The notes under the pieces: generated by a model
What the model saw: only the letters and a program-made list of their open reading frames with translations
What the model was told of the DNA's origin: nothing
The model's database searches: none
Part shown: positions 1 through 64,000 of the stretch, piece by piece
Numbering within the stretch: position 1 is the stretch's first letter
Layout: the number at the start of each line of letters is the position of its first letter
Source of the DNA: Enchytraeus crypticus
Taxonomy: Eukaryota; Annelida; Clitellata; Enchytraeida; Enchytraeidae
Assembly: GCA_905160935.1 (NCBI GenBank)
Contig: CAJHZI010000419.1
Coordinates: forward strand, 619,501 to 683,500
DNA length: 64,000 bases
Direction of reading: 5' to 3'
Position numbers and translations under genes: made by a program

Positions 1-99
1 AGCAATCTGCATGGCACCGCACTGTCGAGAACTGCGGTGCTTCGAATGGCACAACTAGAGAGTCATGCGCAGGGCATCTATGAGTCTCCCCCAATTAAG
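1..99 (+). CDS. nrg: Neuroglian-like exon: end of Ig1 and linker to Ig2
   Basis: The window opens in frame (SNLHGTALSRTAVLRMA), matching the F-G strand and linker that follow Ig1 in L1-family proteins (typically ASN..GTA.S). The exon ends ATT AAG followed by donor GTAAAG, phase 0. Its 5' boundary lies outside the window. Confidence 0.75.
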
Positions 100-3000
100 G
101 TAAAGCTGGTAAAGCTAATATTTAAATAAGCTAAAAAATACTAAAAAAGCTGATAAAGCTAATGTTAACGTCAGTTTCCTCACTCGAAAGCGACGTTAGT
201 GATGAGGGGGGGGGCAGGATTTGAACACGCACATACTGATCCGCGGTATAGTGTCTTACAGACGTCGCCACTGGCTCCAGCCCGTGGTGATGTCACAGGT
301 AGATTTAACTTCCTTCGCGCTGTCACGTGATGTCAGGTACGTCCCTGACATCCTCGTTAAATATTATCCGTCGATTTTGAATCAAATTGTAAAAAAATGC
401 AATAAACTGCTGATTCGTTTTAATTTGATCGATGGTTTACCTTATTTTTATTTGCTTTTGCTGTTTTGATGTTTTATATATAAATTTAAATTTTAATGTC
501 GTTTTTGTTTGTCTTATTATTATTATTGGACTCTCTCTGTAAAGTAGTCTCGAAGGCCGATATCGGCCATGACACAGCTATATAAATTTTCATTGTTAAT
601 AATAATAATATTAGTAATAATAATAATCGTAGTAATAAACAATGACATGGCTCTATAGTCGATGTTTTCATGAACGATGATGTAAATCCCTAGACGATGA
701 CGATTGTTGTAGGAGGGAGAACCGTATAAGCTGGACTGTAGAGCGTCAAGTTACCCGCAGCCTACAGTCAAGTGGTATCTAGTTGACAACCTGCTGGACC
801 GTAACCCAGTGCCTCTTCCCCTTAGCGAGAGACTTCAGATAGACGAGGACGGTAAAGAACTGTTACTTGTTTATTTTAGTTAGAGTTCTAGCTCTAGTTA
901 CTTTTAGTTATAGTTACTTTTAGTTCTAATTCTAGAGCGAAATAGATTCAAGCAGTGGAGAGTTGTTGCTCTGATTCTTTAATATCAGTTATATTTTCGT
1001 TCCTTTTTGTATCTAGACTTGATTTTGTCGTTCCGATTAGTTAGGCCTATATATATCATTATTGCGCCACTTGGGCAAACAACACACATTCATTGCACAG
1101 TGAAACAAAATCAAAATCAAAGAAACAAAATGCAAATACATAGTTATACTTAGTAATAGTTTTAGTTCAATTACAGTTAGAGAATTATATGTGAGGTATT
1201 TCTATGTAGTTATCAGTATTACATTTCTCTTTCTCTTATCTTATGTTATATTATTTTGCTTTCTATTTAATTTGACAATTTCCGTGTGCTTGTTTTAATT
1301 TTGTATGGTATATGCTGTGTTTGAATCTAATAAACACAGTTCTCTCTCTCTCTCTCTCTCTCTCTCTCTCTTTCCCTCTCCCTCCCCCCCCCCCTCTCTC
1401 TCTCTCTCTCTTTCTCTCTCTGTGTTTATTAGCCTCATTCTACTTTTATATACAGCTATTGGCATATGAATTTTCGTAATTACTTAACCCATTTACACCC
1501 AATGGTTGGTATTGTTTAATTGAGTTTTTTGTCTATTGTTCTGCCCAGGTGCCCTGCACTTTGCTTATGTGAAGCGTGAGGACTATCAGGGGGGTAGGCT
1601 CTATGTGTGTAACGTGAGGAACCCATACCTACGTGCCTTAAGTACCGTAGCCGATGTCAGCTACAGCCGACTAAACGTTAAATATGGTACGATATCTAAT
1701 ACACTGTTGTGTAAGGAATGTTAAATATGGTACGATATCTAATTCACTGTTGTGTAACAGAACGTTAAATACGGTACGATATCTAATTCACTGTTGTGTA
1801 ACAGAACGTTAAATACGGTACGATATCTAATTCACTGTTGTGTAACAGAACGTTAAATATTATACGATAACAGTCAGTCAGTCTGGAGTTCAAAGAGGAA
1901 TAAAGTGAAATTTAACCAAATGGTCTTGACTGTTCTAGATTGTTCAAAAATCGAAAATTTTTAATCATATCAAAATTGGCGCCCTAATCAACATGTTGAT
2001 TTTTACTGCTAAATCCAGTTGTTAAATTTTGATTTGACAGCTAGGAGAACGGTTAGATTTTTTCGGGCCCCACGTAATATATGCATATTTAGAGATCATG
2101 GGCCCCTAGCAGGATACGGCACCTCGGAAAAATGAGAGCCAGGAGAACTGAGTTCCCCTGCGCCCCCCAATTTAACCACTGGATAAATCTCAATCAGCCG
2201 CACATTTGGCTGCTAATGTGAACTACCTACACAGCTATTCCCAGATTATTTCCTGCTATCATTAGGCTGGAGCCAGTGGCGAAGTCGGTAAGAAACTCGA
2301 ACGCGGATCAGTATGTGCGGGATTCAAAACCTGGGCTCGTCTGTCACTGACATCCCTTTAGAGTGAGAAAACTTACGTTAACCTCAGCTTAGCTTCTTTA
2401 TCATTCAACAAAATGAAAGTGGACGTTAAATACTACTTTAATTTCTCCTCTCGGTGTGTACATTGTTATTACTCACTGAAGACACAAAGACGAAGTTCAG
2501 GGCCCCTCAGTTCGGCTTTGCCTCGCCGGCTCGAGTAGTGGCCGTGGAGGGAAGAAACGTCACCCTTCGATGCTTCTACACCGGCAGGTGAGACTCGTGC
2601 TGTCAAAGAGTTATCAGATAAAAGTAAAAAAAGCTAAAGCTAATGTGTTTGCAAACCATGTTGGTGTTTATATATAGATCCACTTCCAGCAATATAATGC
2701 TCTTCTAAGTAAAAATAGAGATGTAGATATTTTAAAGAAGCTAATGTTAACGTCAGTTTCCTCACCCGAAAGCGATGTCAGTAATGGGCGAGCCCAGGAT
2801 TTGAACCTCGCACATACTGATCTGCGTTCGAGTATCTTACCGAAAAAGACACTGGTTCCAGCCACTGATGAATCAATCAGTCACGCCTTCAAACAAGCAA
2901 TCAACCAGTCTATCTAGTAGTCATTCGGTTGTTTAATAGATTTATTATTTAATCAATATTCTAATTAATTAAACAATCAATCAATCAATCAACATTGTAG

Positions 3001-63605: not shown

Positions 63606-63799
63606 TTTTACTTTAACTTTGAAGACATTTTACCTGTAAGAATAGTGTAATATTACCTATCTGCTTAGCAACTAATCAACAATTTGAACCAGCGATAGGA
63701 GAGATCGGTGCAATAATGCCTATTATCAATGGCTAATTATGCGTGTACGACGAGCAAACTCCAAAATCATCTAAGCATAGTAACGTACAATATGAATGA

Positions 63800-64000
63800 A
63801 TAAATCAAGGTATTTTAACGTTAAAGCAAATTTGCGATTCAATGAGAAAGGAGATTGTGTGTTGTCAAGAGCACTGGCTTAGTACTGAGCAGTTTTCTTT
63901 GCTAGATGATATTAAAAACGACTCTTACATTTTTGGAGTAAGTTCGATGGATTCGATCCTAGAACAAGGAATTTTAAGAGGAAGACCGCACGGCGGTTTA
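63800..64000 (+). mobile_element. Non-LTR retrotransposon: start of endonuclease ORF (cut by window edge)
   Basis: An open frame without stop to the end: LKQICDSMRKEIVCCQEHWL, then IFGVSSMDSILEQG and LRGRPHGGL. The QEHWL...(G)VS.MD....GRP.GG pattern is the N-terminal part of an APE-type LINE endonuclease. An in-frame TGA lies at 63797-63799. Confidence 0.75.

Follow-up and report, generated by a model that had tools for sequence, protein, structure and literature searches.

Tandem arrays that run across exon–intron junctions are widespread in the sampled genes of the annelid Enchytraeus crypticus. Judged from sequence, they appear to be a newly found example, from a phylum far removed, of the structures described as mirages in amphioxus. 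We consider it probable that they are mirage-type minisatellites, which arise by general tandem duplication with near-random breakpoints, are filtered by selection and leave the exon-proximal splice site in use. The use of the proximal site, the action of selection as a filter and the origin of the first duplication are the parts of this account that we infer. As far as the evidence goes, the mechanism looks ordinary, i.e. a tolerated habit of making repeats and not a special splice-site system.

Window and gene models

The window, i.e. the whole stretch of 64,000 nt that was analyzed, corresponds to C326:619501-683500 of the E. crypticus assembly (524.2 Mb, 802 contigs); the published genome is given as 525.2 Mb in 910 scaffolds (PMC8460440). 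COX1, taken from contig C802, agrees with this origin: it shares 93% identity with the enchytraeid Mesenchytraeus and with a Lumbriculus record, and a quick tree places it in a supported set of 13 rows, together with Mesenchytraeus, an Enchytraeidae record, the same Lumbriculus record and nine other rows. The genes of the window and the arrays at their exon edges are summarized in Table 1. All gene models are homology-based, while the exon edges of the Ig and CUB/LDLa genes were read by eye from the sequence. Locus coordinates of the SLC6 gene were converted as window position = 74001 - locus position.

The hand-built ubiquilin model consists of 13 exons and 584 codons in a single open frame without a stop, and its identity was confirmed by homologs. 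The protein shares 50-57% identity with Branchiostoma across 51-76% of its length, and a tree groups the worm ubiquilin with those of lophotrochozoans. On these grounds amphioxus was rejected as the source.

The SLC6 genes were modelled with a custom spliced-alignment program. Run on ubiquilin, it recovered 23 of the 24 hand-set junctions and placed the remaining acceptor 14 nt off; the same run, made at a low intron penalty, also split one exon and added six micro-exons that are spurious. The SLC6 runs used a higher intron penalty and a bootstrapped SLC6 profile, and covered 17, then 20 genes. Introns whose position was not common to two genes, or which bordered an exon shorter than 30 nt, were dropped (16 of the 160 introns of the initial 18 genes, and 5 of the 24 in the three genes modelled afterwards). 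Places of the myosin-head family were also located in the assembly, and one myosin stretch was kept out of the junction counts.

Other elements were recorded in the same DNA. A 503-aa open frame at 55031-56539, resembling a LINE-type reverse transcriptase by eye, lies in the SLC6 intron region on the opposite strand. A short interspersed repeat occurs on both strands across the window (e.g. 3215-3481, 11624-11865, 16843-17016 and 46321-46530), and a second interspersed element is present at 7780-8007, 13587-13793, 39184-39402 and 61914-62081. Elsewhere in the assembly, COX1-like fragments with stops were found in contigs C361, C424, C796, C373 and C166; these are probably nuclear mitochondrial inserts.

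Arrays at exon edges in the window

The sequence-only reading had named 12 junctions as lying in tandem arrays that hold the splice site together with exon sequence, and all 12 do so. The ubiquilin exon ends at 16173 and 20536 and exon starts at 17134, 19147 and 24543 are exact, and each falls within an array called by TRF. The profile-based exon model placed the SLC6 donors 61648 and 58789 and the acceptor 59560 exactly. The CUB/LDLa junctions 42635 and 38440 and the Ig acceptor 6075 were borne out by the sequence and by the decoy search, with exon edges set by eye. At the Ig donor given as 1673 the array is present, although the coordinate is off by 13 (the reading phase, followed by eye, puts the GT at 1687). 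The exon part, stated as 8-65 nt, is in line with the 8-60 nt of the modelled set, in which 8 nt is the threshold used. One further junction array, at the ubiquilin acceptor 23986, was not in the earlier list.

Two of the SLC6 junctions differ in the form of their evidence. By TRF alone the array at acceptor 59560 contains fewer than 8 exon nt, and the evidence for it consists of three decoys found by probe search. At donor 58789 the array continues across the junction; a GT follows all six 45-nt copies, as CAG/GT in three of them, and the copies lie within an open frame. This layout recalls the dual-specific splice sites described for polyubiquitin (PMC10809524).

Table 1. Genes of the window and tandem arrays at their exon edges (window positions; empty cells, no value given)
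Feature	Position	Strand	Unit, copies and decoys	Basis and remarks
Ig-domain adhesion gene		+		Named by eye
Array at Ig donor (GT 1687)	1674..1869	+	44 nt x 4.5; 13 exon nt in unit	TRF, sequence, phase by eye
Arrays into Ig acceptor 6075	5286..6092	+	Complex, TTG-rich; 7 decoy acceptors	Exon-side end approximate
Ubiquilin gene	14099..24610	+		13 exons, 12 introns; arrays at 6/24 junctions
Array at ubiquilin donor 16173	16153..16339	+	60 nt x 3.1; copies 100% identical; 21 exon nt	
Array at ubiquilin acceptor 17134	16969..17169	+	61-64 nt x 3.2; 36 exon nt	TRF
Array at ubiquilin acceptor 19147	18753..19168	+	163 nt x 2.6; 22 exon nt	TRF
Array at ubiquilin donor 20536	20514..21308	+	45 nt (275-nt higher-order); 15 decoy donor copies	
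Array at ubiquilin acceptor 23986	23802..24045	+	133 nt x 1.8; 60 exon nt	TRF
Array at ubiquilin acceptor 24543	24296..24558	+	53 nt x 4.8; 16 exon nt; 4 decoy acceptors	
Elongin-B-like gene		-		Named by eye
CUB/LDLa receptor gene		-		Named by eye
Array at CUB/LDLa acceptor 38440	38427..39086	-	5 decoy acceptor copies	Exon-side end approximate
Array at CUB/LDLa donor 42635	42530..42671	-	48 nt x 3; ~37 exon nt in unit; 2 decoy donors	
SLC6 transporter gene (G1)		-		Extends beyond window; SLC6 identity from PF00209
Array at SLC6 donor 58789	58565..58834	-	45 nt x 6; unit of exon sequence only	
Array at SLC6 acceptor 59560	59542..59734	-	Degenerate; 3 decoy acceptors	Probe search; exon-side end approximate
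Array at SLC6 donor 61648	61250..61707	-	88 nt x 5.2; 60 exon nt	TRF, exon model

Junction arrays in the sampled genes

A junction array was counted when at least 8 exon nt and at least 8 intron nt lay inside the array. By this measure 23 of the 326 modelled junctions of ubiquilin and 20 SLC6 genes carry one. When ubiquilin and two adjacent SLC6 genes (the one in the window and the one beside it) are set aside, the count is 13 of 260 junctions, distributed over 11 of 18 SLC6 genes and 11 contigs; sampling outside the window region covered the SLC6 family only. Ubiquilin has arrays at 6 of its 24 junctions, which makes the window array-rich in comparison with the average sampled gene. In the first 18 genes, merging of arrays gave 19 junction arrays and leaving them unmerged gave 22.

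The 23 arrays fall at 11 donors and 12 acceptors. Their TRF units measure 16-163 nt, apart from a single call of 275 nt whose inner unit is 45 nt, and they hold from 1.8 to 17.7 copies with 76-100% matches. Unit length is divisible by three in 8 of the 23, which is the chance level. In introner elements the introns belong to a single repeated sequence family; when 26 junction sequences were compared by eye, no common unit was found except between the SLC6 gene of the window (G1) and its near paralog (G2). The claims that the process hits unrelated sequences, donors and acceptors alike, and that duplication lengthens introns and leaves a working copy in place, agree with the larger sample.

A search was also made with junction 24-mers. 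A local copy, defined as a match at 20 or more of the 24 positions and no further than 600 nt away, was found for 28 of 324 junctions; two of the 326 junction probes were lost to the exclusion of low-complexity probes or to N. Foreign probes, searched around other junctions with the 40 nt flanking each such junction on both sides excluded, matched in 4 of 978 cases, and the local matches are therefore not due to chance.

Distribution of arrays relative to junctions

The sequence-only reading had described the duplication as anchored at splice junctions. This was not borne out: the profile has no junction peak, the breakpoints fit a uniform spread, and raw coverage is depleted at junctions. When arrays were rotated within gene bodies, 38 junctions were expected to be spanned, as opposed to 19 observed, a depletion of the kind that would follow if arrays were repelled by exons. 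An offset profile was also made with 30-nt probes and no repeat finder; here and in the copy-number-weighted ratios below, low-complexity probes were excluded. For 15 independent SLC6 genes, local copies were found at 7-15% of intron positions 30-400 nt from the junction (mostly 9-13%), for 2.7% of probes centred on junctions and for 0-1.4% at 20-90 nt into exons, with no local peak at the junction. The corresponding values for G1, G2 and ubiquilin are 18-36% in introns, 20% at junctions and 6-9% in exons at 20-50 nt. Exon-interior probes had a local copy in 1 of 1296 cases in 18 independent SLC6 genes and in 12 of 1564 in all 21 genes. The breakpoints of 17 of the 23 arrays (6 left out) did not depart significantly from a uniform spread (KS p = 0.076), with a skew to short exon parts.

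The rotation null counts array growth, so a founder-based null was added, and the two give opposite directions. With arrays collapsed to founders, 19 were counted in 18 genes as against 7.7 expected, and 10 in 15 independent genes as against 4.5 (P 0.013). The copy-number-weighted ratio of junctions to interiors was 1.47-1.91 in the 15 independent genes, depending on the setting, 1.88 in 18 independent genes (bootstrap 1.35-2.46) and 2.49 in all 21 genes (1.72-3.39); for two-copy arrays alone it was 1.94, the interval (0.76-3.45) extending below 1. A mild founder-corrected excess of about 1.9-fold is thus possible, and its size depends on the assumptions of the model.

These figures bear on a rival explanation, a mutational bias that directs duplication to exon–intron junctions through transcription- or composition-linked breaks or through short stretches of sequence that the exon edge and the intron have in common. 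Such a bias would fit the founder-corrected excess in independent genes, including the 10 arrays against 4.5. It would also fit the higher density of arrays in gene bodies of this window: those of period at least 15 take up 23-29% of the sequence in the four larger gene bodies and 15% of the tested between-gene sequence, with gene limits approximate in both cases. However, the raw profile lacks a junction peak, the breakpoints are spread out and the correction is model-dependent, and we regard this bias as unlikely. A search for microhomology at founder borders returned 77 exact pairs, many of them within older arrays, and then 1 and 5 isolated pairs; the cases were nested, contradicted one another or were too few to bear a claim. 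Tetranucleotide (TGAT)n tracts were considered as drivers of the arrays and rejected, the difference between TRF rows (51 of 284) and random intron windows (125 of 915) being too weak.

Under the preferred reading, local tandem duplication would act genome-wide, with breakpoints falling more or less anywhere. Selection would remove duplications within coding exons, and those in introns would persist. A founding unit straddling an exon edge could be tolerated because one complete copy remains beside the exon, and the arrays would later expand, contract and homogenise. This reading is supported by the intron profile, which lacks a junction peak and falls inside exons, by the random-looking breakpoints and the chance-level share of unit lengths divisible by three, by the presence of arrays in the between-gene sequence of the window as well, and by the paralog copy numbers and decoy sites described below. 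Some observations do not sit easily with this model. The founder-corrected junction excess is not predicted by random breakpoints unless array growth has been wrongly corrected for; the denser arrays in gene bodies speak against a process blind to position; and the copied probes in the exons of G1, G2 and ubiquilin speak against a clean exon filter.

Array turnover between paralogs

The near paralog G2 adjoins the window gene at C326:703501-713500 and is identical to G1 at 757 of 785 coding positions. Arrays at two donors are common to both genes and differ in copy number (5.2 versus at most 2.8, and 6.0 versus 3.1), and several other intron arrays also differ. These unequal copy numbers indicate that arrays lengthen and shorten over times comparable to the age of the G1/G2 gene duplication, and the pair is useful for dating array turnover.

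The same comparison helps to judge whether the arrays are assembly artefacts, i.e. collapsed or stuttered repeats, as the fully identical copies at 16153-16339 might suggest. The near paralogs hold related arrays of unequal length, and most arrays contain diverged copies with real splice context. An artefact is further made unlikely by the assembly itself, described as combining PacBio and Illumina reads at an average depth of 350, read types not separated (PMC8460440). We therefore consider this explanation extremely improbable.

Decoy splice sites

Most of the internal copies retain the splice dinucleotide: GT is kept in 67 of 76 donor copies and AG in 56 of 64 acceptor copies, where a copy had to show at least 17 of 24 matches, so that badly decayed copies are missed. 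Counted cell by cell, the dinucleotides of the decoys agree with the real site 143 times out of 152 at donors and 120 times out of 128 at acceptors. The intron flank of donors matches in 709 of 760 cells, i.e. 0.93 versus 0.94 for the GT. At acceptors the AG reaches 0.94, as compared with a mean of 0.84 for ten intron flank positions, but positions -5 to -3 are kept at 0.97-1.00, as against 0.95 for the A and 0.92 for the G. The decoy dinucleotides are thus preserved to about the same degree as the positions right beside them. Scored on a generic matrix, 50 of the 65 intact decoy donors at the 23 modelled junctions, and 19 of the 48 intact decoy acceptors, equal or exceed the real site. The open frame would be kept, without a stop, by 9 of the 65 donors and 7 of the 48 acceptors, and heavy use of the decoys would for this reason be harmful.

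The arrays had been proposed to buffer mutations or to supply alternative exons. Selection for such spare splice sites could explain the many intact GT and AG dinucleotides, the acceptor AG above its intron-flank mean and the high scores of most intact decoy donors. The proposal fares poorly against the remaining evidence: the dinucleotides are no better kept than their immediate neighbours, only 16 of 113 intact decoys would preserve the open frame, and close paralogs differ in copy number. We judge it very unlikely. Under the duplication reading, the spliceosome would keep to the exon-proximal copy and the internal copies would be effectively silent, drifting decoys; the acceptor AG, above its intron-flank mean, speaks against simple drift. 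From the sequence, it appears that the cell would have to pick the exon-proximal copy by exon context or by nearness.

Comparison with known systems

No described system was said to match these arrays, but the amphioxus mirages do. Mirages are minisatellite-like tandem duplications of exon–intron boundaries, described for Adh3, the globins BflGb6 and BflGb9, troponin C and PGBD5, with units of 10-160 nt, many copies with AG/GT and variable copy number; in the sections cited, they are said to leave regular splicing undisturbed (PMC3087553, PMC3902484). As in E. crypticus, the arrays span the boundary, occur at both the 5′ and 3′ ends of introns, and consist of several imperfect copies of similar unit size. 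The instability of mirage copy number is described there between haplotypes and somatically, whereas in E. crypticus the variation was seen between the paralogs G1 and G2. Mirages were described in the lancelet gene by gene, while the annelid arrays were counted over a set of independent-gene junctions and compared with null models. No annelid report of exon-edge arrays was found among the matches listed from open-licence PMC papers, a scope outside which subscription papers lie.

Minisatellites at exon–intron boundaries have likewise been described in human segmental-duplication genes, where they may create novel introns (PMC2812944). These cases are recent, primate and drawn from paralog comparison and, in the text cited, are not shown as a general intron feature. 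Splice signals are also copied in intron gain by AGGT duplication (Rogers 1989; Zhuo 2007; Gao and Lynch 2009) and in the tandem-duplicated splice signals of intron-gain cases in potato (PMC4974935) and Drosophila (PMC2891723). Such systems are reported to yield a new intron, whereas the SLC6 introns of E. crypticus lie at positions common to paralogs.

It could still be supposed that at least some introns owe their origin, or part of their length, to tandem duplication of exon sequence, either by intron gain of the Rogers/Zhuo type or by donor migration. The SLC6 donor 58789 fits this idea, having a 45-nt unit made wholly of exon sequence, and the used donor would come from the start of a copy; this donor may be a moved boundary. 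For the introns in general the evidence points the other way. In the first 17 genes, 132 of 148 SLC6 introns (exons of at least 30 nt) share position and phase with at least one other gene, and many positions are common to 10 to 17 genes, although this sharing is not fully independent because the profile was bootstrapped on the same genes. The SLC6 introns are by this token old, and no newly gained intron was found among those counted, whose position and phase recur in at least two genes. Duplication of exon sequence can account for boundary shifts at single sites and not for the general pattern, and we judge it very unlikely that introns were made or extended in this way.

The choice between neighbouring copies has an experimental counterpart. 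Identical duplicated splice sites reportedly compete, with exon sequence and nearness deciding the outcome, in work of Reed and Maniatis from 1986. Their substrates were engineered, whereas the E. crypticus arrays form a natural set.

Implications

Mirages, a curiosity of a few lancelet genes, are now extended to an annelid, at 13 of 260 independent-gene junctions. It is conceivable, though rather unlikely, that founders are about twice as frequent at junctions as in intron interiors, promoted by transcription, splicing-linked structure or exon-edge composition; mirages would then represent a general way in which introns lengthen, one that evolved independently in two or more animal phyla. With near-identical splice sites side by side, such junctions may be placed wrongly by gene-finding and read-mapping programs. 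The arrays also offer many natural cases in which the choice of a site by exon context can be tested, and they are a source of shifted exon edges and longer introns.
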